This document shows, in pieces, positions 4,041-19,190 of a stretch of DNA of 41,869 nucleotides. The stretch's first letter is position 1. Every line of letters begins with the position of its first letter. This stretch comes from Candidatus Woesearchaeota archaeon (lineage in GTDB: Archaea > Nanobdellota > Nanobdellia > Woesearchaeales > UBA10216), in the NCBI GenBank assembly GCA_016188145.1, contig JACPIJ010000042.1, forward strand, positions 1 through 41,869, in the 5' to 3' direction. The translations under genes were made by a program, and so were the position numbers. The notes under the pieces are model-generated. The model had not been told where the DNA came from. It made no database searches and saw only the letters and a program-made list of their open reading frames with translations.

Positions 4041-4055
4041 GCAGCAGCAACAATC

Positions 4056-4063: not shown

Positions 4064-4080
4064 TTGCCCAGTAGTTTTCT

Positions 4081-4152: not shown

Positions 4153-4154
4153 AT

Positions 4155-4286: not shown

Positions 4287-4330
4287 AGCGCATCAAGCCA
4301 GATTCGGCTGTTAATCCTGAGAAAGTAAAC

Positions 4331-5068: not shown

Positions 5069-5084
5069 GCAATGTGCTTGATTG

Positions 5085-5585
5085 TCACTGAATTATCTCA
5101 ACCCTGCTGTCGCCTTCTTGGATTCCGTATGCAGTGGTAAGGTTTCCGTTCACTTCGAGAACATATCTGATGGGCTGCCCTGAGTTGTAGAGGGGGCACG
5201 GGTCTGCATGGCAGGGCACGGCGTGGTGAATCTTAACCACTGTGAAGTCTTCAGAAATGAACACGATGTCCAGCGGAATCAGCGTGTTTTTCATCCAGAA
5301 GTTTTGCACTGACGTTGTTGGGAATATGAATAGCATGCCTTCGTTTTCGCCGAGGGATTTTCTGAACATGAGTCCGGTTTCTATCTCTGTTTCGTTGTTT
5401 GCAACTTCAGCGTTTATTATCAGTGATTCGGGATAAAAGGTTACAATTGCCCTGTCATTTGCTGTCTGGGTTGTGCCTGTGGCATCGCCAGATTTATGAA
5501 CCAGATTGGGAAGTCCAACAGCAAAAAAGAACAGGATGAAAAACAGCACCGATGCAGAGATAATAACTGTTTTGAAATCTGTCAT
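5085..5585 (-). CDS. DUF192 family protein with an N-terminal membrane anchor
   Basis: About 166 residues from the ATG at 5585; an ATG at 5603 lies almost on the inferred transcript start (TATA 5607-5618), so the inner start is preferred. One hydrophobic segment (VIISASVLFFILFFFAVGL, about residues 6-25) anchors the protein with its domain outside. The DUF192 signature is complete: ETGLMFRKSLGENEGMLFIF, then FWMKNTLIPLDIVFI, a CHADPCPLYN segment with two Cys, YVLEVN and a final GIQEGD. The family (PF02643) is widespread in archaea and bacteria, usually exported and without proven biochemical function. Divergent from tRNA-Thr. Confidence 0.88.
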   Translation of the reverse strand: MTDFKTVIISASVLFFILFFFAVGLPNLVHKSGDATGTTQTANDRAIVTFYPESLIINAEVANNETEIETGLMFRKSLGENEGMLFIFPTTSVQNFWMKNTLIPLDIVFISEDFTVVKIHHAVPCHADPCPLYNSGQPIRYVLEVNGNLTTAYGIQEGDSRVEIIQ

Positions 5586-5606
5586 GAGCAGCCCTGCTGA
5601 CAAATA

Positions 5607-5618
5607 CCTTTAAAAATC
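5607..5618. promoter_or_regulatory. Two-way TATA region between the DUF192 gene and tRNA-Thr
   Basis: CCTTTAAAAATC can serve as box A for tRNA-Thr on the plus strand (start near 5640, at the base of the folded leader) and, read on the minus strand, for the DUF192 gene. Confidence 0.45.
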
Positions 5619-5648
5619 ATTTGCATATGCGAGAATTTAGTAAGGTTG

Positions 5649-5725
5649 ATAAGGGCGCGAGCATTGCGAGTGCAAGTTGGCGGTAGCCAACTGCACAATC
5701 GGCGAAAGCCGATTTGTGCCCTTAT
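5649..5725 (+). repeat. Folded twin-hairpin leader upstream of tRNA-Thr
   Basis: ATAAGGGC 5649-5656 pairs perfectly with GCCCTTAT 5718-5725, which directly abuts the tRNA at 5726. Inside are AGTTGGC 5675-5681 with GCCAACT 5686-5692 (loop GGTA) and AATCGGC 5697-5703 with GCCGATT 5708-5714 (loop GAAA). The layout matches the leaders of tRNA-Leu and tRNA-Ser although the stem sequences differ, which favours a conserved fold over a conserved sequence. Confidence 0.75.
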
Positions 5726-5876
5726 GCCTCTGTAGCACAGCCAGTAGTTGCGCCACCTTGGTATGGCCTTTTAGGAAAATGTCACCGGAAAGGTGACATT
5801 CTTCGTCTCTAAGACGAAGAAAGGTCAATCAAAAACGAAAAGGTGGAGGTCCGGGGTGCAAATCCCCGCAGAGGCT
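5726..5876 (+). tRNA. tRNA-Thr (anticodon GGT) with a 77-nt structured intron
   Basis: Acceptor GCCTCTG 5726-5732 pairs perfectly with CAGAGGC 5869-5875, discriminator T 5876. D-stem GCA/TGC, anticodon stem CCACC 5753-5757 with GGTGG 5842-5846, anticodon GGT 5760-5762. The intron 5764-5840 follows position 37 as usual. T-stem CGGGG/CCCCG is perfect, but the T-loop reads TGCAAAT, with G where T55 (pseudouridine) is almost invariant. The intron holds its own twin hairpins (see 5765-5837). Discriminator U fits archaeal tRNA-Thr. Confidence 0.88.
5765..5837 (+). repeat. Hairpin element with GGTCAATCAAAAACG inside the tRNA-Thr intron
   Basis: GGCCTTTT 5765-5772 can pair with GAAAGGTC 5819-5826, enclosing AATGTCACC/GGTGACATT (5778-5786, 5792-5800) and CTTCGTCT/AGACGAAG (5801-5808, 5812-5819). 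Directly after the closing strand comes AATCAAAAACG, so the whole motif GGTCAATCAAAAACG spans 5823-5837. Almost the entire intron is this element. Confidence 0.7.
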
Positions 5877-5974
5877 TTATTAGCTCTAATTGAGAGCTCC
5901 GAGAACTTTAGTTTCTAACCCGTTAGCAGCGGCCACTTGTTGCACCTGATTAAGATACCTAGGCTGGCACACGA

Positions 5975-6364
5975 TCAGATCGGGCTTGCTACCAAGTCGC
6001 AAACCGTCATCAGTAAGGTGTTTTTTAGCTCATAGGGTAATTGTGCATCACTAACAAAATTTCCAATACGTGTTCCTGAAGAGTAAGCAACACTAAACAC
6101 GTGGTGGATTCTAGGCGGCAGTCGCTCAACTTCTTCCGCTACGCCCAGTTGTACACTAAATAAATGGAGAGAAGCTTGTACTTCTGCTGGTAAGCTTGGT
6201 GCTCTCCGCACGGCTATATACCATGAAACATCAGTATTTAAGCCGTAACGCTTTAATGTAAGAGCAGCTTCCTCAATTTCGATTTTATGTGCTTCGCTTC
6301 CTCTACCATCAGTTGCGTGCAAATCACCTGAATCAGTAACGATGATTGGTAAACTAGGTTTCAT
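5975..6364 (-). CDS. Hypothetical protein
   Basis: 129 residues starting at an ATG about 25 bases after a clear TATA box, so the transcript is probably leaderless. The N-terminus PSLPIIVTDSGDLHATDGRGSE suggests a beta strand followed by an acidic loop, and the rest mixes helices and strands; no known motif or membrane segment stands out. I do not recognise a family. It lies alone downstream of tRNA-Thr. A short match between its far flank (GCAGAGGCTT, 6529-6538) and the tRNA-Thr 3' end was noted but is too short to prove integration. Confidence 0.5.
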   Translation of the reverse strand: MKPSLPIIVTDSGDLHATDGRGSEAHKIEIEEAALTLKRYGLNTDVSWYIAVRRAPSLPAEVQASLHLFSVQLGVAEEVERLPPRIHHVFSVAYSSGTRIGNFVSDAQLPYELKNTLLMTVCDLVASPI

Positions 6365-6384
6365 GAATAAAGCGAATCAAACAT

Positions 6385-6397
6385 AATTTATAAAACT
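6385..6397 (-). promoter_or_regulatory. TATA box of the 5975-6364 gene
   Basis: Minus-strand AGTTTTATAAATT is centred about 27 bases before the ATG at 6364. Confidence 0.55.
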
Positions 6398-6563
6398 ATC
6401 CAAACAATTATTTTTGCCTCTCGGTTCAAATGGCAAAGAAAGATAAGAATATTCGTAAGCAGGATAGCAAATAATTAGGCAACTGTTCCATTAAAGCCCT
6501 GATTATGAACATTTTAGTATAGCTCCCAGCAGAGGCTTATAATTTTCTGAGCCGAAGCGAGTA

Positions 6564-6575
6564 AAATTTATAATC
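6564..6575 (+). promoter_or_regulatory. TATA box of the 6601-7089 gene
   Basis: AAATTTATAATC lies about 30 bases before the ATG at 6601, the spacing of a leaderless archaeal message. Confidence 0.5.
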
Positions 6576-6600
6576 TGACTAGTGTTACTAACACGGAATA

Positions 6601-7089
6601 ATGACAAGTGACCCTGAGATGACAAGTGACCCTGAGGGCTTGGCAGAGCGAATAGAAAAGCAGTATTTGGCAATGCAGGAGCAGTTGCCAAGTAACGTGC
6701 AGAGCTGGAAGGCGAGCGCCAGCGGCATAATTCATGCGTTAACCGGTAGAGTCAGCATTGAATTGGTCGTCCCGTTGAATGGCGCTTTTAGTCGCCACAC
6801 TGAATTTGTAAACTTACTCTTTGTTAACAATGTTCCAATTACGGGCAGTTACCGAGAGGAGGTTTTTTATTCAAGTGAATATGATAAGGCAGGGTATTCC
6901 GGGGAGTCTGAACATGTAGGAAAGTATAGAATTGAAATTATGAGCAAGCATGGCGGTAGGAGCTTGGAAGGGCAAGTTATTCTGCGTGCCGAAAGAACAA
7001 AAGATTTCGGTCAGATGCATACCTTGGTGAAGGTTATTAAGGAGTACGTTGCTCTCTTTGGCCAAAAAGACGAGCCTAGTGACAGATAA
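6601..7089 (+). CDS. Hypothetical protein with a duplicated start
   Basis: 162 residues. The first 36 bases are a perfect tandem copy of an 18-base unit (ATGACAAGTGACCCTGAG, 6601-6618 and 6619-6636), so the protein begins MTSDPEMTSDPE and two in-frame ATGs are available. The TATA box spacing favours the first. The body has an N-terminal helix (GLAERIEKQYLAMQEQL), then alternating strands (VSIELVVPLNG, YRIEIMSKHGG, LEGQVILRAER) and a C-terminal helix, an alpha/beta layout without recognised catalytic residues. It is the co-directional gene immediately before the seven-gene ATPase cluster, 71 bases away, but has its own promoter; membership in that cluster is uncertain. Confidence 0.6.
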   Translation: MTSDPEMTSDPEGLAERIEKQYLAMQEQLPSNVQSWKASASGIIHALTGRVSIELVVPLNGAFSRHTEFVNLLFVNNVPITGSYREEVFYSSEYDKAGYSGESEHVGKYRIEIMSKHGGRSLEGQVILRAERTKDFGQMHTLVKVIKEYVALFGQKDEPSDR

Positions 7090-7160
7090 GCAAAATCTTT
7101 TTATCTTCAGTGGCATTCCTCAACGCTTTAAACGTTCAGTAACATGTGAGGGGTTTTTGC

Positions 7161-9437
7161 GTGGAAAAGGCAGGTTCATTGCTGGAGAGATATGCGCATG
7201 TCAGGACAGGTCAAGACCTGATTAATGCAGGAGTAATTCCTAAGAGCTCGGCAGCGTTTCTCGCATGGATTGCATTTTCACGCCTTTCAAATTTGAAAGC
7301 CGCGATTACGCAGTCTGTTGAGCCTGAGATGCTCGGAAGCTGGTTGCCTGCTTTTGCTCCTGTTATTAAAGAAGTTGGCGAAGTCATATCAAACCGGAAT
7401 GACATAGGTGAATACGCCAAGGTTGGCATGAGGGTTCGTGGCGATGTTGCAACTGCAGACAACCCTTCAGCAACGCTTGAAGGGACTATTAGAGATGCAG
7501 CACGCGGGTCTTACCTTGCGGTTGAGTGGGACCGTCCGATTATTAACAGCAGGTCAATTAAAGGGGTTAAGGAAGGTTACGGAAGTTATGTGTCTTACGA
7601 AAACGGACAAGTCCATCTCCTTGTCCCAGGAGGCAAGGTTGTAGACGGCTACCAGCTCGCAAATGGCGTGGTTGCTGATGAGAAGCTCGGACACAGGGTA
7701 AGGTTTGTAGAAGGCTACGAGTCAACTAGGCGTCGGCGGGATTCCCCGGATGCTGAGGTTAAGATTCCTAAAGGGGCCCTTGCAACGCTTACCAAGTATG
7801 ATGCCGAGAGGCAACGGGTAACAATTAGGCTTGATGAAAAGGTTGAAAGCTTGCGCTCTAACGAGCTTACGATTGGCATGGGTGAAGCCCTGACAAAATT
7901 GCAAGTGTCGAGCCTGGGCCAGATTGAGCCTAAGAGCCTTGAGCACGAAGTTATGAAGGCAGCTTTTTCCGGTTTCTTCCCAACGACTGTGCTCGACATT
8001 GGCACGGCAAGGGATATCGTTGTGGGGTTGCTGATGGGGAAAGACATGGTTTTTTACGGACCTCCAGGATCTGGCAAGAGCCAGGCCGCTAAGGACATCG
8101 TGGCCATCGCACAGCAGCAGGAGGTCATCTTCCACGTTGAAGGCTGCAAGGTCCAGTGCAACCCGTTCAGCCTGTTTGACCCCTCCTTCGCAAAAGTTGT
8201 GCCGGCCTGCCCGGAATGCAAGATAAATTATGATTCCGGATTTAAAGAAACTGGAAACTTTACGCCTCCCAAACCGCAAAAGGTTAAGGTAACCACAGCA
8301 AGATATGGGGAAGGAAAGGGCATTGAAATGTTGGAAGGCACGACAGGGCTTCAGCGCATGCACCTTGCGGGCTTTAAGATACCAAACCTTAGCGACGCAA
8401 ACATGGTGGACCTGGAAAACGAGTTTGACCCGCAGGGCTTTCATCCTGGCGTCTTGAGCAGGACCAACAATGGCATCCTGTTTGCCGAGGAGTTTGACAA
8501 GTGGCGGCCTCAGGCGTGGGAAAGCCTCTTGGCAGCTTCTCAGGACAGCGCAATCAAGCCTGACCAGCTCAGGTTCTCTTACCCGGCAAATGAGGCTTTT
8601 TTTGGTACAGCAAACGACCCTTCTGTTTTTCCAGAAACAATCAACGACCGTATGCTGCTGATAGCCATTGGGTATCCTCAAAACCGTGATGACAGCTACC
8701 TCATCACCAGGCGAGCTTACCACAAGGAAACAGCAATCCTTGAAGCCGTTCCGGTTGGAGACTCTCACACCCAGACCAACCAGGCGCTGAGGCAGGTGCC
8801 CATGCCAGTAATTGTCGAACGAGCAGTAGACGCATTTTATCTGAAATTCAGGAAAGAGTACACCGGACCGGGAAAGACCCAAATATCAGGCAGCAACCGT
8901 TCCAAGCTTGACGCGCTTGATGCGGGAAGGGCAGAGCTCTTTCTGGATTCAATATTTTTCGAAGCCACGCCCGCTACTGCAACTGCTGAATACGCGATGC
9001 GCGGCATTAGGTTTGCACTTGTTACCCGGCTTCAGGAAAGCAGCCCTGAAAAGGTAGCACAGGCAAAGTCGTCTTTGGACGAATACCTGCTGAAGGAGTT
9101 TCCAAAAGCCATGCACGAGGAAGAAGACACGTGGTGGTGCAGGGTGTTCCAGAACATGGCAATTAAGGAGACTCAAGCGCCAGGCATTGAAGGCGCTTTC
9201 CGCGCTGAAATAGCAAGTTACAAGGAAGACCCGAGGAAGGCATTGAAGCCTTTTCAAAAGGTGAAGGCTGCCAATGAAAGCCCTCAGAATCCTAGACTCC
9301 AAAATGCCTTATTGGACCACCCATTTATGGCTTACCTGTTTGGGGAGCAGCCTAAAATGTCAATGGTCAACGAAAGGCAGCTGACCGAGCTTGTGTCATA
9401 CCTGATGGCAAGTCAGGCAAGCTCATCCTGCAAGTAG
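7161..9437 (+). CDS. Cluster gene 1: MoxR/PrkA-like AAA+ ATPase with a cysteine cluster
   Basis: About 758 residues from GTG 7161, which has GAGGGG seven bases upstream; GTG 7146 is the alternative. An N-terminal region (about 1-280, beta-rich in its second half) precedes the AAA+ core: Walker A FYGPPGSGKS near residue 298, a Cys-rich insert C-x3-C...C-x2-C at about 330-355 (KVQCNPFSLF...PACPEC) resembling the insert of PrkA-type AAA domains, Walker B-like GILFAEEFDKW near 438 and a sensor-1-like FFGTAND. MoxR proteins normally read LADE at Walker B; here it is FAEE, with Glu for Asp. MoxR ATPases remodel partners together with a VWA protein, and such a protein is encoded two genes on. Substrate unknown. 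Confidence 0.85.
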   Translation: MEKAGSLLERYAHVRTGQDLINAGVIPKSSAAFLAWIAFSRLSNLKAAITQSVEPEMLGSWLPAFAPVIKEVGEVISNRNDIGEYAKVGMRVRGDVATADNPSATLEGTIRDAARGSYLAVEWDRPIINSRSIKGVKEGYGSYVSYENGQVHLLVPGGKVVDGYQLANGVVADEKLGHRVRFVEGYESTRRRRDSPDAEVKIPKGALATLTKYDAERQRVTIRLDEKVESLRSNELTIGMGEALTKLQVSSLGQIEPKSLEHEVMKAAFSGFFPTTVLDIGTARDIVVGLLMGKDMVFYGPPGSGKSQAAKDIVAIAQQQEVIFHVEGCKVQCNPFSLFDPSFAKVVPACPECKINYDSGFKETGNFTPPKPQKVKVTTARYGEGKGIEMLEGTTGLQRMHLAGFKIPNLSDANMVDLENEFDPQGFHPGVLSRTNNGILFAEEFDKWRPQAWESLLAASQDSAIKPDQLRFSYPANEAFFGTANDPSVFPETINDRMLLIAIGYPQNRDDSYLITRRAYHKETAILEAVPVGDSHTQTNQALRQVPMPVIVERAVDAFYLKFRKEYTGPGKTQISGSNRSKLDALDAGRAELFLDSIFFEATPATATAEYAMRGIRFALVTRLQESSPEKVAQAKSSLDEYLLKEFPKAMHEEEDTWWCRVFQNMAIKETQAPGIEGAFRAEIASYKEDPRKALKPFQKVKAANESPQNPRLQNALLDHPFMAYLFGEQPKMSMVNERQLTELVSYLMASQASSSCK

Positions 9438-9465
9438 GCTGCCATATGCGTGGTGATTGGTGGTT

Positions 9466-10224
9466 ATGGAAACAAACAGCGCCAGTAAAGGCATTCACGT
9501 TGACGACGTTGACGTAAAGCGATACGAGCGCGCAGATTGCACGCTGTTCAGAACACCGCCAGTTGATGTTTCTTCAGTTGGCAGCATTATTGAGAAAGCG
9601 CTTGTGCGCGCGTGGGAGCAAGGCGAATCTGCCGATTATGCGCTCGATTATTTGCTGCGTGAAGGCAGCATAACAGACAAGCTTGCCCAGCAGATAGCCC
9701 AAAGCCTCCAGTTTCAGAGGCAGCGCGCCTTGGAAACAGTAGATGAAGAAAAGGCAAGAGCCATTGGCCAGTACGCTGCTGAAAGGGAGCAGCTGTTGCA
9801 AAGCATAGAAGAAGCACTTGGAACCAGTATCCGGCAGAGGCAGGAAGGGCTGCAAAGGACTATGGGGGAAGCTCGCCAGCAAACAGCAGCGTACAGTGCA
9901 ACGCAGTTACAGCTGAATGAGCTGCGCACTCGTGTTAAATCGCAGATAAGCGAGCTTGGCGGGGTTCAAGGCTATAATGTGCTTAGCCGGATTAGGGAAG
10001 AGTTAATTCAAGACCAGGACCAAGGCCAGGAAGAAGGGCAAATAGGGCAAGTGAAAAAAGGCGAGGAAGGCAGGGATTACCGTAAGCGGCCAGTGCGCCA
10101 AAGGCAAGAGCTGGCCGGAAGCGCAAGCGACCTTGAGGAAATAATTGAGCGCGAGCCAACCAAACTTGGCCGCTTGTGGAAGACGCTGGTCAACGTGGTA
10201 ACTTTAAGGTACTTGAGGAAGTAG
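9466..10224 (+). CDS. Cluster gene 2: coiled-coil protein
   Basis: 252 residues from ATG 9466, which follows GGTGG closely; a TTG at 9457 is the alternative. Residues 1-70 look folded (YERADCTLF, then a helical stretch), about 70-165 form a long Gln/Glu/Arg-rich coiled coil (QFQRQRALETVDEEKARAIG), about 180-215 are charged and disordered (EEGQIGQVKKGEEGRD), and the end is basic and partly hydrophobic (KLGRLWKTLVNVVTLRYLRK). No enzymatic motif is seen. It is 28 bases after the MoxR-like gene and likely co-transcribed, so an adaptor or scaffold role in the same machine is the natural inference. I do not recognise the family. Confidence 0.7.
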   Translation: METNSASKGIHVDDVDVKRYERADCTLFRTPPVDVSSVGSIIEKALVRAWEQGESADYALDYLLREGSITDKLAQQIAQSLQFQRQRALETVDEEKARAIGQYAAEREQLLQSIEEALGTSIRQRQEGLQRTMGEARQQTAAYSATQLQLNELRTRVKSQISELGGVQGYNVLSRIREELIQDQDQGQEEGQIGQVKKGEEGRDYRKRPVRQRQELAGSASDLEEIIEREPTKLGRLWKTLVNVVTLRYLRK

Positions 10225-10260
10225 TGAAGTAGTGGAGTAGTGGAGTAGTGGAGTAGTGGA
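10221..10260 (+). repeat. 8-base tandem repeat (GTAGTGGA, five copies) at a gene junction
   Basis: GTAGTGAA then four GTAGTGGA units run without interruption from the last codon of cluster gene 2 (its TAG stop is 10222-10224) towards the ribosome binding region of gene 3 (GGTGATGGGTGG, 10262-10273). Such short repeats gain and lose copies by slippage, which here would change the spacing between the two genes. Confidence 0.9.
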
Positions 10261-10283
10261 ATGGTGATGGGTGGCTATAAAAA

Positions 10284-11660
10284 ATGACAGCAAGAAACGC
10301 TCAAAACTCTCCTGCTATTTTAACGCTTGAGGAGTTTACAGAAAGGTTTTCGAAGCGGTATCGGGCAGAGCAGTCCTTCCGCGAGATGGTGCACAGCTAC
10401 ATGAAGCTGTCCGGAATCAGGAAGGCGGCGCTTTCGGTGGCAAAGGCCCTTCACATTCCGTGGTATGGCACAGAAACAGGCAGGATAATCACGAATTATG
10501 CTACGATAATCTATGAAGGAATGTTCAAGCTGCAGAGGGTTGAAAGCGCTATTGGCGAATTTAAGCAGACAAGTGGGGTATTGGGAAGCCAGGCTCAGGC
10601 AGTAGGCAGACTTGAAACTGCAGTTCAGGAGGCTGAAAGTGAGCTCAGAGTTACTGAGGCAGAGCGGCGGGCAGCATTGCAGCAGGCTGACGAGTCGTAC
10701 CTTGCGAAGACAGAGGGGGAAGAGCAAGCCGCCCAGCAGGCAGCAGGGGAAGTAAGGAGAAAAACCGATGAGCAGGAAATCGTAAGGGGGAAGTTGAGGG
10801 AGTTTGTTGTTAATTCCCCACTCGTCAAAATGTCAGAACATGGCACACTTACCTTTGACGAGGAAAGAATTATGAGGCGGCTTGAAGAGGTTGCTTTAGA
10901 CGAAATAGTTGAAGGAATTGAAAGCGAAGGCTCCACAGGTTTTATGGCAAAAATGAGGGCTTCTTATGATGGGCTCATAGCTTACTGGGCAGAGGTTGAA
11001 GACTTCTCCGAACTGCCAAACGTTGACTGGATACAGTCAGCCATCCTTTCAAGGACAAAAGGCTACAGGGTTCCGACATTCCCTTACTGGGTAGCTGGGA
11101 AACCCGAGGATAAAGCCAAAGCCAGGGTCTCTGTTGACACTGCCATAAGCCTTGACGTCAGCGGCAGCATGAGGGAGAATAACCGCATGGTTGCCGCAAG
11201 AAAAACAGCCACGGCAATGGTTGCACTGATGAGGCGCCTAAACTCTCGTAACGAAACATTCCTTTCTGTTTTCAGTTACGAGATTAACCCAATAACAACC
11301 AAAGACCTGAGGACAATCGTGCCTAATGGGGGTACAAGGACAGAATACGCGCTTGATTGGATGATACAAACGCTGAAAGACAGGGGGCCAAGCCTTGCCT
11401 ACCTTATAACCGATGGCGCCCCAAACTACCTCGATGCTACTGTAAAGGCGGCAAGGCGGTTTCAGGATCATCCCTACATAATGCTGAGAATCTTCCTTAT
11501 AGACGGGGACAAGGAAACAGAAGAAAATGTGCGAAAATTCGGCAGTGCTGCCGGGCTGCAAACCAAAGTCGTGCCCGTCAGGAACTACCAGCTTGGCGGC
11601 AAGGTTATTGCAGACATGTCGAAAGCCATTGGGGAGATGCGCGGAATAGCGGAGTTTTGA
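10284..11660 (+). CDS. Cluster gene 3: protein with C-terminal von Willebrand A (VWA) domain
   Basis: 458 residues. Residues 1-90 are helical, about 95-175 form a coiled coil (Glu/Ala/Gln-rich), about 190-280 are another helical region, and the C-terminal third is a VWA domain with an intact metal-ion-dependent adhesion site: LDVSGSM near residue 291, GGTRTEYAL near 348 and YLITDGAPN near 376. Length and the C-terminal placement of VWA are those of ViaA/NorD/CoxE-type partners of MoxR ATPases, so pairing with cluster gene 1 is likely. The ATG lies about ten bases after GGTGATGGGTGG. No signal peptide, so it acts in the cytoplasm. Confidence 0.88.
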   Translation: MTARNAQNSPAILTLEEFTERFSKRYRAEQSFREMVHSYMKLSGIRKAALSVAKALHIPWYGTETGRIITNYATIIYEGMFKLQRVESAIGEFKQTSGVLGSQAQAVGRLETAVQEAESELRVTEAERRAALQQADESYLAKTEGEEQAAQQAAGEVRRKTDEQEIVRGKLREFVVNSPLVKMSEHGTLTFDEERIMRRLEEVALDEIVEGIESEGSTGFMAKMRASYDGLIAYWAEVEDFSELPNVDWIQSAILSRTKGYRVPTFPYWVAGKPEDKAKARVSVDTAISLDVSGSMRENNRMVAARKTATAMVALMRRLNSRNETFLSVFSYEINPITTKDLRTIVPNGGTRTEYALDWMIQTLKDRGPSLAYLITDGAPNYLDATVKAARRFQDHPYIMLRIFLIDGDKETEENVRKFGSAAGLQTKVVPVRNYQLGGKVIADMSKAIGEMRGIAEF

Positions 11661-11712
11661 CGTATGCAATGAATTTTCATCCACGGGAATTCTATGCCAA
11701 CCATCAAGCATA

Positions 11713-11725
11713 ACATTTATAAAAG
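11713..11725 (+). promoter_or_regulatory. Internal TATA box before cluster gene 4
   Basis: ACATTTATAAAAG in the 190-base gap after the VWA gene suggests that genes 4-7 can also be transcribed from their own promoter, starting near 11745. Confidence 0.5.
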
Positions 11726-11848
11726 TGTCTTAATTCCTCAGTTGTTAATTAAAGGTTTTAGGGTTTGGGGTGAAGTGGCATCACAACAGAAGGCAACAAT
11801 CCAGCACAACAGGCAGCCAGCAAGCCAGCAAGCCCTGGCGAACAGGCT

Positions 11849-13057
11849 TTGGAGAGAATTCTTGAACGTTATAAGGGTCCTCAAGCGGCAGCGCACCGTG
11901 CTTTTGACGCTACTTCAGGGCAGGCAACAAGAGCCCAAACGCGGATTAGCCGCGGACCGACTCAGACTATAGGCGAGGAATCAGGGCTCGCTGAGCATTA
12001 TGCAAGGATGGCTGAGATAGAGCAGCAGCTAATACAGTATGCAGACGACCACGGCAAGCTTACCAAAACCTTTCAGGAAATATTGGCTGATAAGGGCTTG
12101 TCCATGGGTGATAAGTTCAGGATTGTTCTGTACAATCTAACCCTTCGGGCAAATAAAGCGAAGCAAGTGCCGATTGAGGCTGCTCGGAGAAAGGGCACGC
12201 TTCTTGAATCGCTTGTTAACGACATAGCTGAAGTGTTTGACGAACAGCATCAGACTAGTATCAACGGGGTTGCGCGTTCAAGAGAAATGCAGACAAGAAA
12301 CATTGCCCACATGAAGTACCTTGATGACAAACTTGTGAAAAGCCTTACGGACAGTTATAAGGGTCAGCCAGACTACCTTGCTGCGGAGCAGGAAGTAGGG
12401 CGTTTGGAAAAAGAGCTTTTCGAAATACAAACCGTAATGGAAAGCGTGGAGGCAGAGGTACAGGCTGCCAAGGACGTGGGAGACCTTGCAAGGGTTTCCA
12501 GCCTTACCCAAAAACTAACCGACCTCCTTGAAGTCAAGAGAGGGGTTTATGACGGCAGGTATGGTGCAGAAGGCGCAGTGCTTGAAATAAGAAGGAATAT
12601 GCTTGACAAGGCAGAAGGAATACAGTCTGCTAAGGGTGCGCTTGCTGCTTCAAGAGTGAACTACGAAGCAATAACTGCCTTAATAGACGCCTACACCAAG
12701 CTTGAGATAAAATACAGGCATGCCAGAAGCGACATGATACCAGTTTTCAGAATACAAGCCCAAATAGGAGCTGGGGCTATGCAAGCCGCTAAACTTACGG
12801 ACTCCCTAATCAGGGCTGCAGCTATTTCAGAGCAGCTCATGGCGTTTAACGAAAGCATTGTCAGGCAGATTGGGCGTTCTGTTCAGGACCTCCTACAGAC
12901 TCAGCTGTATGATGAGCAAAGGGCTGCAGCAATCGAGGACAGGTTAAAAGAACACATGAGACAGCTGGCAAAAAACGATATTGAATGGGCTCAGAATCTT
13001 ACGACTGTAAGGAGTACTCCCGGAAATGTAGGCGGCGGATACGCACGCCCTTCATAG
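11849..13057 (+). CDS. Cluster gene 4: long helical protein, perhaps TelA-like
   Basis: At least 402 residues, nearly all helical. The first conventional start in frame is TTG 11849, which has no ribosome binding site; the frame stays open back to 11774 with protein-like composition (GNNPAQQAASKPASPGEQAL), and GGGGTGA 11767-11773 is correctly spaced for an ATC at 11780, so the real protein is probably about 23 residues longer. The middle has coiled coils (EQEVGRLEKELFEIQTVMES), and the last third (PVFRIQAQIGAGAMQAAKLT, then a long Gln/Arg helix) resembles the C-terminal helices of toxic-anion-resistance TelA proteins; this likeness is by eye and weak. No membrane segment. Confidence 0.75.
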   Translation: MERILERYKGPQAAAHRAFDATSGQATRAQTRISRGPTQTIGEESGLAEHYARMAEIEQQLIQYADDHGKLTKTFQEILADKGLSMGDKFRIVLYNLTLRANKAKQVPIEAARRKGTLLESLVNDIAEVFDEQHQTSINGVARSREMQTRNIAHMKYLDDKLVKSLTDSYKGQPDYLAAEQEVGRLEKELFEIQTVMESVEAEVQAAKDVGDLARVSSLTQKLTDLLEVKRGVYDGRYGAEGAVLEIRRNMLDKAEGIQSAKGALAASRVNYEAITALIDAYTKLEIKYRHARSDMIPVFRIQAQIGAGAMQAAKLTDSLIRAAAISEQLMAFNESIVRQIGRSVQDLLQTQLYDEQRAAAIEDRLKEHMRQLAKNDIEWAQNLTTVRSTPGNVGGGYARPS

Positions 13058-13069
13058 GCCCTTCATAGG
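13048..13069 (+). repeat. 11-base tandem duplication over the stop codon of cluster gene 4
   Basis: CCCTTCATAGG occurs twice back to back (13048-13058, 13059-13069); the first copy contains the TAG stop. Deleting one copy would leave the same C-terminus, so the duplication is neutral for the protein but changes the intergenic distance. Confidence 0.85.
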
Positions 13070-13115
13070 CAAATCCTGACCTGTTTTTCTTACTGCTGCG
13101 GCATGCTCTCTTAAA

Positions 13116-14249
13116 ATGGTAAATGTAACGCGTTCGCACCGGCTGACTGGCAGTGAAAAGGGTAATTACACGTCTGCACTTGATTCAGCACTTGAAGTTC
13201 TTGCAAACGGGCTGGCAGAATTGCCTGAGCAGCACCCAGGCCAGTTCCGCGCTTTTGGAGAAAGAAACAAGTGGGATTGGGATAGGCTGCCAAAGGAGCA
13301 GAACACTTACCAGACATTGGCTGACATGGTTAGGCGAGTTCAGCAGGAGTACAGGTGGTTTATGCCGGTTCTGGATTCTGAAGCTCCCGAGCATAACAGG
13401 GCGTATTTCGAAGAGGTTGAAGTAAGCGCAGAATCAGGGCTTCCCTGGGTTTGGGAATTCATTCGCTTAGCCAGCCTGAAAAGAGACGCTCCGCAACTGC
13501 TTCAGGTGATGCCAACGTACCAAAGGGCTGTGCAAACTTTTCGCTCTTTGCTGCTTGAAGATTACGTCAAGCCCGAGGAAGTCCCGGAAAGGGTTGAAGC
13601 CCTTCACAGGGATGCGTTGCGAAGGAGTTTTATTGAGCAGTTACGAGGCGCAGAGCTGCTTGATTGGCACCAGGGAAAAAACAGCTCTCCGGTGAAGGCA
13701 AGAAAACTGCTAACCCTTGGCGCAGAGCAGCTATGGAACATAACAGTTATTAAGTATTCGGCAGCAAGCAGCCTGTTTCACTTGTACGCGATTGACGCTT
13801 GGCAGGACGTTCGCGAGCCCGTATTTAACGAAGTGGCAGCAGGAAATGTTTCAATATCCCCTTCGTTTGAAGCGCAGTTCGAGTTCGGAACCCAGAACGA
13901 GGCATGGTACATGCTTAGGCAGATTGACCAAGCTTTCAGAAGCCTCCACCCAGTGCATGTTTCCAGAGCGATTGTAGGACCGTTTGAAGGCAGGTATTCG
14001 ACAAGCCCAAGGGAAATACCTATGCTTCCAGTAACAAAACAGCTGCTGGCAGAAGACTTTGGCGTAAAACTTTTTAGGTTTTCAAGGCAATACGCCTTTG
14101 CGCCCAACCACGTTGAAGTGCTTGGAGAGCCTCAACAAGTTGTCCACAGGGAGGACTGGCGGGATGAAGTTATCGTATGCCCTGCGAAATACGCCTCGCA
14201 GGTTGCAAGCTCTGTAGCAGGAACTAACATAAAGATTTTCAAGATGTAA
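13116..14249 (+). CDS. Cluster gene 5: hypothetical protein
   Basis: 377 residues. The N-terminal 200 residues are helical with many aromatic and acidic positions (RVQQEYRWFMPVLDS, LPWVWEFIRLASLKRD), followed by a mixed region (LLTLGAEQLWNITVIKYSAA) and a beta-containing C-terminus (DEVIVCPAKYASQVASSVAG). No Walker, metal-binding or membrane motif is visible and I cannot place it in a family. The gap to gene 4 is 58 bases and it lacks an obvious ribosome binding site (TCTTAAAATGG). Its position between the VWA/TelA-like genes and the second ATPase suggests it is a component of the same machine, but this is inference only. Confidence 0.7.
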   Translation: MVNVTRSHRLTGSEKGNYTSALDSALEVLANGLAELPEQHPGQFRAFGERNKWDWDRLPKEQNTYQTLADMVRRVQQEYRWFMPVLDSEAPEHNRAYFEEVEVSAESGLPWVWEFIRLASLKRDAPQLLQVMPTYQRAVQTFRSLLLEDYVKPEEVPERVEALHRDALRRSFIEQLRGAELLDWHQGKNSSPVKARKLLTLGAEQLWNITVIKYSAASSLFHLYAIDAWQDVREPVFNEVAAGNVSISPSFEAQFEFGTQNEAWYMLRQIDQAFRSLHPVHVSRAIVGPFEGRYSTSPREIPMLPVTKQLLAEDFGVKLFRFSRQYAFAPNHVEVLGEPQQVVHREDWRDEVIVCPAKYASQVASSVAGTNIKIFKM

Positions 14250-14268
14250 TGTGTAATGTAAGATGTAG
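14245..14268 (+). repeat. Short tandem repeats over the stop codon of cluster gene 5
   Basis: TGTAATG occurs twice in tandem (14245-14251, 14252-14258) and AAGATGTA occurs at 14241-14248 and 14260-14267; the TAA stop at 14247-14249 lies in the first unit. This is the third junction in the cluster with direct repeats at a stop codon. Confidence 0.7.
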
Positions 14269-14289
14269 CGTATGGCATAAGTGGTACAC

Positions 14290-16002
14290 ATGGCTGAAGT
14301 AAAAACGATAGTGCTTGATGAGTTGGTTGCTTCAGAGGTAAAAACTGTGCAAGCAATCGTATCAAAAAGCGGGCAGCCTTTGAACAGGTCGCTTTACGAC
14401 GCAGTGGTTCACGAGCTTTCCGACGGAACAAGAAACACACCCAACCAGATTCAGTACCTTGACGCTTATGAGCAGGCGGTTTCTGTATTCAGGGCTGCTG
14501 CCTTGCAGCTCAGGGTAGAGATGGATGTCCTCACGCTTGAGCAGAGGCTTGCTGCGAGGCAAAGCCCAGCCCCAGCCGCTGGCGCTTCAACTCAAGACGA
14601 GCTTCAGAAGAGAATCACCGACGCGATAGTCTTCAGCAACCGCTATGCGCTCTTCCTCGCAGGTAATGTTGGCCTTGCACTTCTTAGCTCAGAAAAACCG
14701 GCAGAGGTTAAGAGCCACTTCACTTTTACTGATTACGAAGCAAGCAAGGATAGGGACCAGCATACAGCGAGCCTGGCAAGGCAGAACAGTGAAGACTTGC
14801 TCAGGGTAATTTCGGAGAAAAGAAGCCAAGGAATGCCCGTAAGCGATGACGACCTTAAATACACACTTGAAGGAATCTTTGCTTCGTGGATTAACCAGTT
14901 TAAGTGGGACACCTTTAGGGAGGTTGCGGAGCCATTCGGTGCTGATAAGATAAGGCTACAGTACCGCCAATTTTCAGTTGAGGCAGGAACTTTCCAAAGA
15001 AAGCATACCTCTGTTGTCGTTGACGAGCGCTTCATGAACGCGCGAAGAGCAGACATTATCAACAGCGAGGAATATACCGGAAGGATATGGAACAACATGA
15101 TTAAGCTCCTCGCGTACGACCACCAAAGGAGGAGAAACCCTTACGACCCTGCATTTTGCGTATTTACATTCGGCGCGCCTGGAGGGGGCAAGACGTTTAT
15201 TGCCCATGCCCTGGTAAGAGAGCTCGAAGAGTTATGCAAAGATCGTGGCGTTCCGTTCTGGGCTTTAACGCACAGCACTACGGACTACGCCTCACATTTC
15301 CAGAACCTGACTGCCAACCGTCTTTCGGAGCTTGCAGCACAAATAAGGGATTTCCCTGGCCCTGTAATCATGTACGTCGCCGATGCTGACAACCTCTTCC
15401 AGTCGAGGAAAGACCCAAGGTTAACTTCTGAGCAGCAGCAAACCCTTGCCGTGTACTTTAAAATGTTTGACGGCCAGCTCATTCCGAAGAACGGGAAGTT
15501 CATGGCAATCATGGACGCAAACTACATAGAGGGCATTGACGACGCAACCAAAAGCCGGCTTTTCGATGAAATACTTGAGCTGCCGAGGTTTGTAAGTGAA
15601 GAGGATTTTGCAAGGCTTGCGAGGATGCAGCTGACAAAGGGCTTGGAAGGAGGCATACCAATTCCAGAGCAAGACTGGCTTGAGGTTGGGAAGTATCTTT
15701 TGGAATCGCCTCTGAGCAACAGGGAAGTAGGGCACGTGATAAACGGCCTCAGGAGGGGTTTTGATGTGCCTGAAAGCATGGTTGGCGCGCCTTATGAAGA
15801 GCACGTGGCTTACCGGAACCATCAGTTACAGGGCATTACGAAGGCATTTGTGATAGCAAAGTTTAACGATTACATAACAACCCGAATGATGGTGGAAAGG
15901 GCCTCGCGCGAAGCGCGTTTGCGTGATGACACGCAGCGGTTCCTCGACTTCCTCCAACTGCCAGGCGGCGGAGCTACCACCCCTCCTCCTTCAGCAGGCT
16001 AG
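14290..16002 (+). CDS. Cluster gene 6: classical AAA+ ATPase with altered Walker B
   Basis: 570 residues from ATG 14290 (GTG 14281 is possible). The N-terminal half is helical and unassigned. The AAA module starts near residue 285: Walker A FGAPGGGKT at about 295, Walker B region VIMYVADADNLF at about 360, a sensor-1-like AIMDAN and an Arg-rich finger segment SRLFDEILELP as in Cdc48/Vps4-type AAA domains, then a helical lid and a Pro/Gly tail. Canonical AAA proteins read DEAD/DEID at Walker B; here it is ADAD, so the Mg-coordinating Asp is Ala and the catalytic Glu is Asp. It may bind ATP but hydrolyse it slowly. Second ATPase of the cluster. Confidence 0.85.
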   Translation: MAEVKTIVLDELVASEVKTVQAIVSKSGQPLNRSLYDAVVHELSDGTRNTPNQIQYLDAYEQAVSVFRAAALQLRVEMDVLTLEQRLAARQSPAPAAGASTQDELQKRITDAIVFSNRYALFLAGNVGLALLSSEKPAEVKSHFTFTDYEASKDRDQHTASLARQNSEDLLRVISEKRSQGMPVSDDDLKYTLEGIFASWINQFKWDTFREVAEPFGADKIRLQYRQFSVEAGTFQRKHTSVVVDERFMNARRADIINSEEYTGRIWNNMIKLLAYDHQRRRNPYDPAFCVFTFGAPGGGKTFIAHALVRELEELCKDRGVPFWALTHSTTDYASHFQNLTANRLSELAAQIRDFPGPVIMYVADADNLFQSRKDPRLTSEQQQTLAVYFKMFDGQLIPKNGKFMAIMDANYIEGIDDATKSRLFDEILELPRFVSEEDFARLARMQLTKGLEGGIPIPEQDWLEVGKYLLESPLSNREVGHVINGLRRGFDVPESMVGAPYEEHVAYRNHQLQGITKAFVIAKFNDYITTRMMVERASREARLRDDTQRFLDFLQLPGGGATTPPPSAG

Positions 16003-16016
16003 AGCAGGATAATATC

Positions 16017-17429
16017 ATGGAACCAACACTGAAAGATTTGCTAGAGCTTCATAAGCTAAGGAGATTAAGCAGAAGGAGGCGTGGAGAGCCGGACACAAGT
16101 CGGCTTGAGGAAGAATTTCTGTTGTTTTCCTCACAGCTTCCAAAAAGTGCCTTAACTGTTCAGATTCCAAAGCAATATACTCTTGAAGGCGATGAACGGC
16201 AACATTTTGCCGAGGCACTGGAAAGTCTTGGATTGCTGCCAGGAACTGTACCAGCGAACAGCGCAGTAACAACGGTAGACATTTCCGGAGCTACACACCT
16301 GTTATTCCCCTACGATGTATTGCTTTTTGTTTCAGATAAGCAACTTGCAGCTGACCATGTTTCCACTGAGAGATCTTACCTTAATCCGCTTATCGAGCAG
16401 ATTTATACTAAAGGACGGGCATTGTTAATGGACTTTACGATTCACGAAGCTCTCTTCGGAAATGTGGTTGCAAAACGTGACAAGCTTGACCTTCAAGAGG
16501 TGCATCTGTTTCCTGAAAGGTTCAAGCAGGGGCCCTATGAACTGCATGTAGAGCTTGATACGCCACGCCAGACAGTTAGGCAGTTCAGAAGTCTTGCAGA
16601 TGTTTTGGAAGAGATTGGCTCTAATCCGGAATCCTCCTTGCTTAATCCTGCACTGCTCAAACAGGCAACTGCCCTTGCACTTGGCCTAAGGGAACGATTA
16701 GGCTCGTTATCGAGGTACTCCCCAGCTTCCCAGACTTTTGCTTCCCAAACGAATTCTTGCTTGGTTCGAACAGAAGAAGCGGACCTCTTCTACCTGTATG
16801 CGCCATTGCACAACAGGAATGTTCTTGTCTGCTTCGGCAGCTCCCCGTTTAACCCAGCCAATAAGCCAGCTGATTTGATGGTGCTTGATGGCAGCAACTA
16901 CCAAAGCACGTTGATAAAACTATTAGAATTGGGGATTTTTCAAGTGAGCCAGCAAGTGCTGAAATTGAGGATTGAAGACCTTACAAAAATGTATGAACGG
17001 GCATCACGGGCAGCTTCAACATCCCTAAGAGGGCTTTACCCTGACTTTGAAGGGCTTATGGGGCAGTTGAGGACAGCAGAAGACACCCTCGAGCGCATCG
17101 TTAACCCTGACGCGAGAAGGGCATACGCCGCCGGAATTACTGCCGAAGTGCTCGAATTTATGGTTTATCCGAACACAGAAGACCCGGTTGTTCATGAGCT
17201 GCTGCCCAGACTTTCGTGGAACAGGGCACTAAGAGAGTACCACAACACAAGGCAGTTCATAAGGGTTTTTAGTGCGGCAACTGATGAGAACAAAAGGGCT
17301 ATGCTTGATGAAGTTACAGCAAGCACCATGTTCCGTAATCAGCAGAACAACAACGTAAACCAGTGGCTATACCAACAGCACAGGGACTTCTGCGAGGCTG
17401 CAGGCATAAAATTTGTAGCATCAGGGTAA
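16017..17429 (+). CDS. Cluster gene 7: hypothetical protein
   Basis: 470 residues starting 14 bases after gene 6. The N-terminus is basic (LHKLRRLSRRRRGEP), then alpha/beta sequence (TTVDISGATHLLFPYDVLLF, VVAKRDKLDLQEVHLFPE, LFYLYAPLHNRNVLVCFG) gives way to a helical C-terminal third (LRIEDLTKMYERASRAAS, then a long Arg/Glu helix). A single hydrophobic patch around VLLFVSD is too short for a membrane helix. I find no catalytic motif and no family resemblance. The close spacing makes co-expression with the AAA gene likely. The stop codon is followed by AT-rich sequence with several T runs, where the cluster transcript probably ends. Confidence 0.7.
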   Translation: MEPTLKDLLELHKLRRLSRRRRGEPDTSRLEEEFLLFSSQLPKSALTVQIPKQYTLEGDERQHFAEALESLGLLPGTVPANSAVTTVDISGATHLLFPYDVLLFVSDKQLAADHVSTERSYLNPLIEQIYTKGRALLMDFTIHEALFGNVVAKRDKLDLQEVHLFPERFKQGPYELHVELDTPRQTVRQFRSLADVLEEIGSNPESSLLNPALLKQATALALGLRERLGSLSRYSPASQTFASQTNSCLVRTEEADLFYLYAPLHNRNVLVCFGSSPFNPANKPADLMVLDGSNYQSTLIKLLELGIFQVSQQVLKLRIEDLTKMYERASRAASTSLRGLYPDFEGLMGQLRTAEDTLERIVNPDARRAYAAGITAEVLEFMVYPNTEDPVVHELLPRLSWNRALREYHNTRQFIRVFSAATDENKRAMLDEVTASTMFRNQQNNNVNQWLYQQHRDFCEAAGIKFVASG

Positions 17430-17721
17430 ACTATATCTGGGCGAGCTATAAATCCGCGCAAGTGTTTTCCAAACCAAATTATAAAATCCATCAACTTTTA
17501 TAAAATCAGCTTTTTTTATAAGTTTTATAATATATAAGCCAAAGTTATTTATGAGTGTAAGCCTACATGCCCCTTTAGTTGAATAGTTTCACATTTCCCA
17601 AGTCGCTACTGCGACTGGGCCCAATCGGCTGCTGCGATTTGGGTTTCTTTAGCAACAGCAATAACGGCGAATTAGGCGAATTGGCAGGGCTGTTATTGTC
17701 GCAGGGGAGGCGGTATGGGTG
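17430..17721 (+). promoter_or_regulatory. AT-rich promoter region and long structured leader of the 118-residue gene
   Basis: The gap opens with an AT-rich tract carrying repeated TTATAAAA-like boxes; TTTTATAATATATAAG at about 17523-17538 is the best TATA box, giving a start near 17560 and a leader of about 160 bases. The leader contains the twin hairpin at 17597-17643 and a further stem (CAATAAC with GTTATTG, about 17656-17698). GGGGAGG at 17703-17709 is the ribosome binding site. No gene is seen in the gap. Confidence 0.55.
17597..17643. repeat. Twin-hairpin repeat, copy 1
   Basis: Two adjacent inverted repeats: CCCAAGTCGC/GCGACTGGG (17597-17619) and CCCAATCG/CGATTTGGG (17620-17643). Nearly the same unit occurs at 22714-22761 and 35936-35983. 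Stem bases differ between copies but remain paired (AGTCG/CGACT, AATCG/CGATT), which suggests selection on structure. Confidence 0.8.
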
Positions 17722-18075
17722 ATGTTTGAGGACTACGATACAGAATTCGGGTACTCGTTCAGCGACTTAAGGCGGGACTACAGCAGGAAGGCCTATGCGG
17801 TGCCTGACTACGACGCGCACAGCCTGGAGGAGATTGAGCTGAGCCTTGCAACCAGCAAATACGCCGAGCGCGGCGAGTGCCTTGAGCATTCAAAATTCCT
17901 TGAAGACCTGCAGAAGCGGCTTTCAATGATTGCCCTCGCTGAAGAGCGCGAGGGAATAATGAACTGGGAGCTTCGCGAGGTCCTTGAAAAGGTCAGGCGG
18001 CTAACAAGGCAGCTTGCGGCAGTGATGGAGAAGTTGCCTGAAGTGGTTGTGTATAAGACGCCAAAAAAGGAATGA
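17722..18075 (+). CDS. Hypothetical protein with a coiled-coil C-terminus
   Basis: 117 residues from ATG 17722 (a GTG directly before it is also possible), about 12 bases after GGGGAGG. The first 40 residues are Tyr/Asp-rich (EDYDTEFGYSFSDLRRDYSR), followed by charged helices ending in VRRLTRQLAAVMEKLPEVVV. It is not obviously related to the ATPase cluster upstream: it has its own promoter and a long structured leader. No family recognised. Confidence 0.65.
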   Translation: MFEDYDTEFGYSFSDLRRDYSRKAYAVPDYDAHSLEEIELSLATSKYAERGECLEHSKFLEDLQKRLSMIALAEEREGIMNWELREVLEKVRRLTRQLAAVMEKLPEVVVYKTPKKE

Positions 18076-18189
18076 AATTCAGGTTTCAAGGTAAAAAGGG
18101 TGGGGTGCTGGCGAAGGGGCTGTGGCTACTCATTCTGAACCGCTAATGTGACAAGGCAATACAAGATTATACGTATTTTATATCGTAAA

Positions 18190-18199
18190 GTTTAAATAG
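18190..18199 (+). promoter_or_regulatory. TATA box of the small membrane-protein gene
   Basis: GTTTAAATAG, with an inferred start near 18222 and a strong ribosome binding site AAGGAGGGTG (18260-18269) before the ATG at 18279. Confidence 0.55.
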
Positions 18200-18278
18200 T
18201 CGGAAAGTTCAGAAGGCCACATAAGCCGTTTAATGTCGTAAGGCTGAAAATAAAAACGAAAAAGGAGGGTGTGCAAAA

Positions 18279-18665
18279 ATGGCTAAAGCTATGTCAATGT
18301 CTAGAGCAGGTGACAACTCACTGCAGTCTATTGGAAGCTGGGCTTTCCTGCTTGGCGTCTTTGTTGCAATTATCGCAGGCGCCCTGTTGCCTGACAAGTC
18401 AACCACGCCAACTGTGACGTCATTCCTTGTGCTTCTCGGTACAATAGTTGGGCTGCTGAATGTCACAACAAAGGAAACCAACTCGTTCCTGCTGGCTTCG
18501 GTAAGCCTCGTGCTTGTTACAGCGCTTGGCGGCTCAGTGGTTAGCGGCGTTGTTTCAGTCGGCCAATACCTCGGGTCGATGCTTGACTCGATCCTGGTGT
18601 TTGTTGTGCCGGCAACGATAGTTGTTGCGCTGAAGTCAATCTTCGCGCTTGCTGAGCGCAAGTAA
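18279..18665 (+). CDS. Small membrane protein with four predicted transmembrane helices
   Basis: 128 residues behind the strongest ribosome binding site in the window (AAGGAGGGTG), which suggests high expression. Four hydrophobic segments are visible: WAFLLGVFVAIIAGALLP, VTSFLVLLGTIVGLLNV, FLLASVSLVLVTALGGSVV and LDSILVFVVPATIVVALKSI. The ends are hydrophilic, with a Ser/Met-rich N-terminus and a short basic C-terminus. Proteins of this type are common in DPANN archaea without known function; that is general knowledge, not a database match. A T-rich terminator follows. Confidence 0.75.
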   Translation: MAKAMSMSRAGDNSLQSIGSWAFLLGVFVAIIAGALLPDKSTTPTVTSFLVLLGTIVGLLNVTTKETNSFLLASVSLVLVTALGGSVVSGVVSVGQYLGSMLDSILVFVVPATIVVALKSIFALAERK

Positions 18666-18671
18666 ACGCTC

Positions 18672-18702
18672 AGCTTTTTTCCTTTCTTTTTCTTTATTTT
18701 CC
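18672..18702 (+). terminator. T-rich terminator
   Basis: GCTTTTTTCCTTTCTTTTTC and further T runs directly after the stop codon, typical of archaeal oligo-T termination. Confidence 0.55.
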
Positions 18703-18764
18703 GGTTATTTTAACGATTATTGATGCTGCTGGCTGCCGTTGGCTGCGCCTGCCTCATTGCAAAA

Positions 18765-18776
18765 GTTTTATATATC
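18765..18776 (+). promoter_or_regulatory. TATA box of tRNA-Val
   Basis: GTTTTATATATC about 43 bases before the tRNA; transcription should start near 18796, giving a short leader. A hairpin (TTTCCAA/TTGGAAA, about 18778-18802) lies across the start region. Confidence 0.55.
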
Positions 18777-18813
18777 ATTTCCAAGTTCGCAGAAATTGGA
18801 AAAATCGGATTTC

Positions 18814-18946
18814 GGGCTCGTGATCTAGTGGTTATGATGCTTCCTTGACGTGGAAGATGTCCCCAGTTCGAACAACCTTTTTCCTCGCTGCGGCGAGCAA
18901 AAAGCTTGACCAAAAAGGAAAAGGTGCGAATGTCTGGGCGAGCCCA
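18814..18946 (+). tRNA. tRNA-Val (anticodon GAC) with a 60-nt intron in the T-loop
   Basis: Acceptor GGGCTCG 18814-18820 pairs perfectly with CGAGCCC 18939-18945, discriminator A. Anticodon stem CTTCC/GGAAG is continuous with anticodon GAC 18847-18849, so there is no anticodon-loop intron. The T-stem CCCAG 18862-18866 and CTGGG 18934-18938 are separated by 67 bases: TTCGAA, a 60-base insert 18873-18932, and T. The junctions form a bulge-helix-bulge: TTCG pairs with CGAA (18927-18930), the 5' bulge is AA|C and the 3' bulge TG|T. Splicing restores the standard loop TTCGAAT. The intron has stems ACCTTTT/AAAAGGT and CTCGC/GCGAG. Confidence 0.9.
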
Positions 18947-18950
18947 CTTA

Positions 18951-18982
18951 ACTTTTTTACCTAAAAAAGTCAATCAAAAACG
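18951..18982 (+). repeat. Hairpin plus GTCAATCAAAAACG after tRNA-Val
   Basis: ACTTTTTT 18951-18958 pairs with AAAAAAGT 18963-18970, and the 3' arm runs straight into CAATCAAAAACG (motif 18969-18982). The T run inside could also end the tRNA transcript. The motif is the same as in the tRNA-Thr intron and in the coding region at 25430. Confidence 0.75.
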
Positions 18983-19139
18983 TGTCTTATGCAAAAAGTT
19001 TATAATGTTCTATTTGTTCTTTCTTCTGAAATTTAGGAAAATTTTATCAGGGCATAGTTACGAAAACAGCCCTTAATGGCAAAAAGGTCGGGAAAATGGC
19101 AAAAAAAGGCTGGATAAACCGGGAAGGAGGGCGGGCAAC
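18983..19139 (+). other. Intergenic region before the permease gene
   Basis: Contains two weak TATA-like boxes (AAGTTTATAATG near 18994 and AAAATTTTATC near 19037) and ends in GGAAGGAGGG (19121-19133). Two out-of-frame mini reading frames beginning with ATGGCAAAAA (19076 and 19096) stop within 20 codons. No gene is seen. Confidence 0.4.
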
Positions 19140-19190
19140 ATCAAGCTGACCATAAGGTATTCAGTAATCCTCGTCATACTTCTCGGATTT

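Follow-up and report, generated by a model that had tools for sequence, protein, structure and literature searches.

MoxR-type AAA+ ATPases paired with von Willebrand factor A (vWA) proteins are held to capture a peptide through the metal ion-dependent adhesion site (MIDAS) of the vWA protein and to remodel it by the AAA+ ring (PMC7159879). In the FtsH ternary systems, MoxR and vWA proteins are accompanied by a classical AAA+ ATPase and unique helical proteins (Kaur et al., 2020, PMC7159879). Here we analyzed a stretch of 41,869 nucleotides from a Candidatus Woesearchaeota archaeon (contig JACPIJ010000042.1; hereafter the window), in which seven co-directional open reading frames (ORFs) on the plus strand, g1 to g7, occupy positions 7146–17429 (Table 1). 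A first-pass annotation had recognized seven consecutive plus-strand genes here, and they hold as ORFs, although the start that it gave, 7161, falls on codon 6 of the g1 ORF. We likewise found the domains assigned there: an AAA+ bearing a Cys4 insert, a vWA domain that has a MIDAS, and a classical AAA+. Judged from the sequences, we favor, by a modest degree, the reading that the genes encode a horizontally acquired protein-remodelling machine of two modules, in which a MoxR-type chaperone (module A, g1–g3) would serve a DUF6638-type AAA+ complex (module B, g4–g7).

The cluster recurs as a set. A g6 profile run over the order gave strong matches in 6 of 353 genomes, and all six carry all seven genes; a g1 search of the phylum gave strong matches in 5 of 371 genomes. 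The synteny asked about at the outset is therefore present: apart from the window's own genome, five genomes of the order have complete sets, four with the gene order of the window and the fifth (G146) with the two blocks swapped whole (4-5-6-7-1-2-3). The order g1 to g7 is kept everywhere else that it is visible, and in one genome (G296) the set is split across two contig ends. Four further contigs beyond the six genomes, added by a g6 scan of genome contigs, carry all seven genes (CAIQQL010000011) or contiguous parts of the set (VGLX01000008, JACPXY010000061, and JACPNI010000023); JABJHR010000002 apparently equals the contig G166:C7, sharing its length and match positions, and thus adds no new locus. 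In most homologues little sequence separates one gene from the next, and overlaps are frequent (−4 nt, e.g., g2/g3 and g5/g6); mean pairwise identity ranges from 29% (g2) to 47% (g6), and distances between proteins correlate strongly for g1–g6 (0.87) and g4–g5 (0.75). The recurrence of full homologous sets excludes a chance grouping; homologues occur together, and the whole set matches no named operon. Since about 10 kb is costly in a nanoarchaeal genome of about 1.2 Mb and the cassette is kept despite divergence, it must be useful.

Part of the cluster extends to bacteria. The g7 homologue in a distant archaeal locus (G090) has a weak DUF6638 match (9e-5), which led to Vibrio, and further bacterial copies lie on plasmids or chromids of S. 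meliloti, Shinella, and R. leguminosarum. The bacterial gene run encodes a helical protein of ~360 aa, a protein of ~380 aa, an ATPase of ~635 aa, and a DUF6638 protein (PF20343), the last three being collinear with and homologous to g5-g6-g7 in Vibrio and Rhizobiaceae. In profile–profile comparisons, the corresponding bacterial proteins were matched by g5 at 98.4%, by g6 at 99.0%, and by g7 at 96.5% (E 7e-10 for the DUF6638 proteins against the g7 profile), with off-diagonal pairs at or below 8%; g7 of the window taken alone gave no match to the DUF6638 Pfam model. The bacterial helical protein scored 0.3% against the g4 profile, and its likeness to g4 is one of position and apparent helicity alone. 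Neither in Vibrio nor in S. meliloti does the annotation show a MoxR or vWA gene next to the module. Because bacteria carry g5-g6-g7 without g1–g3 beside them and G146 swaps its blocks whole, the set appears to consist of two separable modules. A literature search found no paper on DUF6638, and these uncharacterized proteins now gain a functional context, in that they go with an AAA+ partner and a constant gene neighbor and, in archaea, with a MoxR–vWA chaperone. In S. meliloti Ak57 (L062, 16097–17842), two genes, one with an endonuclease domain and one for the ISRm16 transposase, lie between the ATPase and DUF6638 genes.

Within module A, g1 carries a Walker A motif at residues 305–312, sensor-1, an Arg-finger-like NDR, and a C-terminal extension, and its N-terminal ~270 aa are predicted to form SH3-like barrels. 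The Cys4 motif consists of four invariant cysteines (C334-x3-C338 and C355-x2-C358), and the motifs of g1 are kept among its homologues. In the Pfam scan, g1 matched Mg_chelatase over its cut-off (1.4e-5), and the AAA_5, AAA_PrkA, and Mg_chelatase models matched all six g1 homologues (best AAA_PrkA E 4.8e-8). The g2 protein has a conserved N-terminal ADCxLFRxPPxD block and a basic C-terminus, and its gene overlaps or abuts that of g3 in most homologues. In g3, the C-terminal vWA domain matched VWA_2 (2.9e-5), and the MIDAS D-x-S-x-S (D291/S293/S295) is invariant in 8/8 aligned homologues. With a MoxR/chelatase-clade AAA+, a nearby vWA protein bearing a MIDAS, and g2 between them, module A shows the general features of a MoxR–vWA pair. 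One alternative is that such a pair serves the maturation of a cofactor-bearing or metalloenzyme client, in the manner of NorQD, CbbQO, or Mg-chelatase, the client being the product of g4, g5, or g7. Maturation is a common role of MoxR–vWA pairs (PMC7159879) and would suit the Mg_chelatase match, but Pfam showed no enzyme domain in g4, g5, or g7, nor did a search with the folds of g5 and g7, the set has no conserved enzyme gene beside it, and a second AAA+ would be unusual; we consider this explanation improbable.

That second AAA+, g6, has one AAA match (PF00004, 1.8e-10, residues 296–435) behind a family-specific N-terminal region of ~290 aa. Its Walker A reads GxPGxGKT, whereas Walker B is replaced by MYVADAD: the pair is AD in 7/7 aligned archaeal homologues, against DE in the Msp1 alignment and DD in the bacterial counterparts. 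Sensor-1 Asn and an Arg are retained. A degenerate Walker B suggests reduced activity, and of the proposed system with two different ATPases, the conserved multi-gene set with two AAA+ proteins stands, while in g6 the Asp-Glu pair of Walker B is missing. The solved structures best related to g6 are those of Msp1/ATAD1 (3.4e-5), from which one might picture a machine for quality control of the envelope or of membrane proteins, g6 acting like Msp1/ATAD1. Arrays of lipoprotein-like or membrane-anchored genes do follow distant homologues in G090 and G490, and in the rhizobia S. meliloti and Shinella the module is followed by a gene for DUF2333, whose N-terminus includes a hydrophobic stretch, a feature in which the window cluster differs. 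However, no hydrophobic anchor was evident in g1–g7 when the sequences were read by eye, and the Msp1 match is a generic AAA+ one, Walker B being lost in g6; a membrane role seems unlikely. For the remaining module B proteins, g5 and g7 gave confident predicted models (predicted local distance difference test, pLDDT, 87 and 86) with no significant match in a fold search of the PDB, and the g7 model had no viral match in BFVD. No family match was found for g4. A motif likeness of g4 to TelA was unsupported: against TelA genes gathered with a fragment as bait, the hhalign alignment fell where the likeness had been suspected, in the same register, and scored 0.6% (E 0.096).

In the two-module reading that we favor, g1 would form the AAA+ ring of a MoxR-type chaperone with a predicted zinc site, g2 would be a coiled-coil adaptor linking g1 to g3, and the g3 MIDAS would capture an acidic peptide of a client. 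Module B would be a DUF6638-type complex whose body and adaptors are supplied by g5, g7, and the helical g4; g6, given its degenerate Walker B, would probably be a slow or nucleotide-gated scaffold. ATP hydrolysis by module A might then assemble, load, or reset module B, or remodel a client held there. We infer that the products form one complex, and likewise the direction of action and the adaptor roles. Several points weigh against this reading. Distance correlations are weak (~0.2–0.4) for several protein pairs, and the co-evolution of all seven is therefore not uniform. In addition, G090 keeps divergent g5-g6-g7 without g1–g3, so that module A is not required by module B in every genome. 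Finally, matches of g2, g4, g5, and g7 to families of Pfam, NCBIfam, and PADLOC do not rise above chance level, and no fold or family fixes a role for them. The cluster nevertheless supplies concrete protein pairs for pull-down and structure work.

The distribution and surroundings of the cluster point to acquisition. Among 19 genomes of the window's family, g3 occurs in the window's own only, and the distance between the flanking DUF192 and AI-2E-transporter genes is 13.6 kb in the window vs. 1.9–2.8 kb in five relatives. At the same site, the congeners G012 and G013 have ~0.7 kb with a cyclophilin gene, between the tRNA gene and the homologue of window position 17496; the window's genome carries a cyclophilin gene on another contig, 68% identical to the congener's. 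The block starts directly after the intron-containing tRNA gene. No direct repeats of at least 11 nt were found at its borders, and no integrase was seen. The block was either gained here or lost repeatedly elsewhere, with local rearrangement, and gain is the simpler explanation; the cassette apparently moves between genomes as one unit. A viral origin was considered and rejected, given that pattern scans found no relatives of g1 or g6 in IMG/VR, none of g6 or the G090 g6-like ATPase in phages, and none of g1 in plasmids, and that the BFVD scan was likewise negative. One g1 scan of genome contigs missed all relatives though relatives exist, and negative pattern scans, the viral ones included, are for this reason weak evidence.

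Because the cassette is mobile, a role in stress or conflict is likeliest. More specifically, the cluster could be an anti-invader conflict system of the MoxR–vWA ternary kind, in which the ATPases restrain an effector until invasion and paralogue arrays supply variable parts, a reading that we regard as possible but clearly less probable than a remodelling machine. The patchy distribution across the order and the family, together with the empty site, would fit it, as would the composition of the FtsH ternary systems described above. The locus in G090, a complete one-contig genome, also favors it. Here the diverged g5-g6-g7 (E 4e-16, 2e-40, and 3e-46), with a gene for a helical protein standing where g4 would be and no g1–g3 found nearby, run divergently from an operon encoding a protein with a JAMM-like HxH...SxxD motif (read by eye, without a Pfam match), a double-ThiF E1-like protein (1.8e-50), unknowns, and a homologue of g0, the gene directly upstream of g1 in the window. 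This locus recalls the variant of FtsH ternary systems bearing ubiquitin-like (Ubl) proteins, but it is a single locus, and orientation is no proof of association. Diverged tandem arrays of 15, 10, 9, and 6 paralogues near the cluster or its distant relatives, where control sequence totalling 253 kb has arrays of at most 6, would further suit a conflict system; however, the arrays of different loci are not homologous to each other, and no array lies in the window. Also against a conflict role, nuclease, toxin, caspase, EAD, VMAP, and Ubl domains were not found in the seven genes, and bacterial module B lies among ordinary genes in Vibrio and rhizobia.

Taking the remodelling machine together with these variants, we tentatively raise a broader possibility, less probable than the two-module reading itself: a hitherto undescribed class of mobile dual-AAA+ machines, which would have arisen when an archaeal Cys4 MoxR–vWA chaperone was joined to a DUF6638-type AAA+ complex of wide bacterial–archaeal distribution, with the second ATPase turned into a nucleotide-gated scaffold. 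The E1/JAMM-linked variant of G090 might then belong with it to one DPANN archaeal family of ATPase-plus-tag systems that serve in conflict or quality control. In L048 (G060:C18, 429–4210), genes for a helical protein, a g6-like AAA+, and a MoxR-like AAA+ stand in a row, adjoining lipoprotein-like and membrane-protein genes, possibly a third variant.

Among the neighbors of the cluster, g0 has only a weak homologue (26% over 116 aa), at the end of the E1/JAMM-like operon in G090, and at none of the other loci was it seen next to the cluster; it is the one flanking gene with a homologue near a related locus, and we do not claim it as an eighth core member. Default ARAGORN and Rfam did not detect three intron-containing tRNA genes, at 4154–4286, 5726–5876, and 18810–18959. 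The last of these, assigned to Val from its congener, is interrupted in the T-loop region by 60 inserted nt, an insertion that is absent from G012. Pairs of AbiEii/AbiEi-type toxin–antitoxin genes lie a few kb downstream of g7 both in the window (21168–22438, outside the acquired block) and in L016 (9251–10698). A dispersed palindromic-looking repeat occurs at 17590–17650, 22710–22751, and 35936–35969, and the congeners have it too.

Table 1. Positions of the seven genes, of the acquired block, and of related features (window positions unless a locus is named).
Feature	Position	Strand	Size	Description
g1	7146..9437	+	763 aa	MoxR/chelatase-type AAA+ ATPase
g2	9457..10224	+	255 aa	Predicted coiled-coil protein
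g3	10284..11660	+	458 aa	Helical N-terminus, C-terminal vWA with MIDAS
g4	11849..13057	+	402 aa	Predicted helical protein; TTG start
g5	13116..14249	+	377 aa	Alpha/beta protein
g6	14281..16002	+	573 aa	Classical AAA+
g7	16017..17429	+	470 aa	Distant DUF6638 homologue
Acquired block	5882..17495 (approximate)		11.6 kb	From alignment with congeners G012 and G013
Intron-containing tRNA gene	5726..5876	+		Left border of block; ARAGORN, introns allowed; conserved in congeners
g0	6601..7089	+	162 aa	Directly upstream of g1, inside block
129-aa ORF	5975..6364	-	129 aa	Inside block; no homologue found
E1/JAMM-like operon	L046 (G090:C1) 14479-19736 and L050 7501-7905			Divergent from g5'-g6'-g7'
Paralogue array	G082 (L017+L018) 21629-31328		9 copies	
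Paralogue array	G146 (L019+L020) 78-9939		15 copies	
Paralogue array	L046 2116-8440		10 copies	
Paralogue array	L047 1932-6607		6 copies	

Compared with described ATPases, the g1 AAA core is nearest, among those tested, to an archaeal Cys4 ATPase of ~360 aa (hhalign 99.5%). These MoxR/chelatase-type ATPases (e.g., in G004, G230, and G211) share the core and the CxxxC...CxxC motif with g1 but lack its N-terminal (~270 aa) and C-terminal (~240 aa) extensions. PrkA/YeaG comes next (AAA core 95%, profile–profile), and with a vWA partner the cluster recalls PrkA/YeaG-YeaH-SpoVR. The YeaG alignment, however, stops at the AAA core, no PrkA kinase domain was found in g1, DUF444 and SpoVR had no match in the cluster, and g3 reached only 20% against YeaH. 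The idea of g1 as a PrkA derivative was demoted, the archaeal Cys4 ATPases scoring far higher. The resemblance to RavA-ViaA lies in the general idea of an AAA+ beside a vWA protein with MIDAS; because the profile–profile probabilities are low (RavA–g1 9.9%, ViaA–g3 34.7%), g1 and g3 are not members of that system. The first-pass label "ViaA-like" for g3 accordingly keeps its vWA and MIDAS, while the likeness to ViaA is loose and confined to the vWA domain.

Among multi-gene systems, scanning each of the seven proteins as a single sequence, with E values of up to 1 allowed, gave no match to a VMAP model of the MoxR-vWA-VMAP system, and PADLOC gave no match to known anti-phage systems beyond weak, P-loop-type, or coiled-coil ones. 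The cluster resembles the FtsH ternary systems in its MoxR AAA+, its vWA protein, its classical AAA+, and its patchy distribution, and in having several helical proteins that occur nowhere else. The third component of those systems, however, has two FtsH-type AAA domains, the first inactive, whereas g6 has a single AAA; no second AAA was matched in g6 residues 1–290, which might yet hold a very divergent inactive copy. None of the effectors (NEFF1, radical SAM, EAD1, caspase, Ubl set) was found in the seven genes or the scanned window neighbors, and the E1/JAMM-like operon occurs only in the distant G090. Pfam models of the ternary systems gave no match save a chance-level bpMoxR (0.09; beta-propeller class) in one g1 homologue. 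The window cluster also differs in being archaeal, in having seven genes, and in lacking recognized effector or Ubl genes in the window. The seven-gene combination was not found described in the papers that we searched, nor did the search give a paper for Woesearchaeota with MoxR and von Willebrand. The claim that the cluster has no recognized counterpart was thus only partly right: g5-g6-g7 are collinear in bacteria as the DUF6638 module, the g1 AAA core with its Cys4 motif belongs to an archaeal MoxR/chelatase-type ATPase family, and the theme of MoxR–vWA plus a classical AAA+ is known from the FtsH ternary systems (PMC7159879). The nearest described kind is the bacterial MoxR-vWA-FtsH ternary conflict systems, most of whose defining features are not shared, and the cluster, in a combination that we did not find described, is real, conserved, mobile, and built partly from known families.

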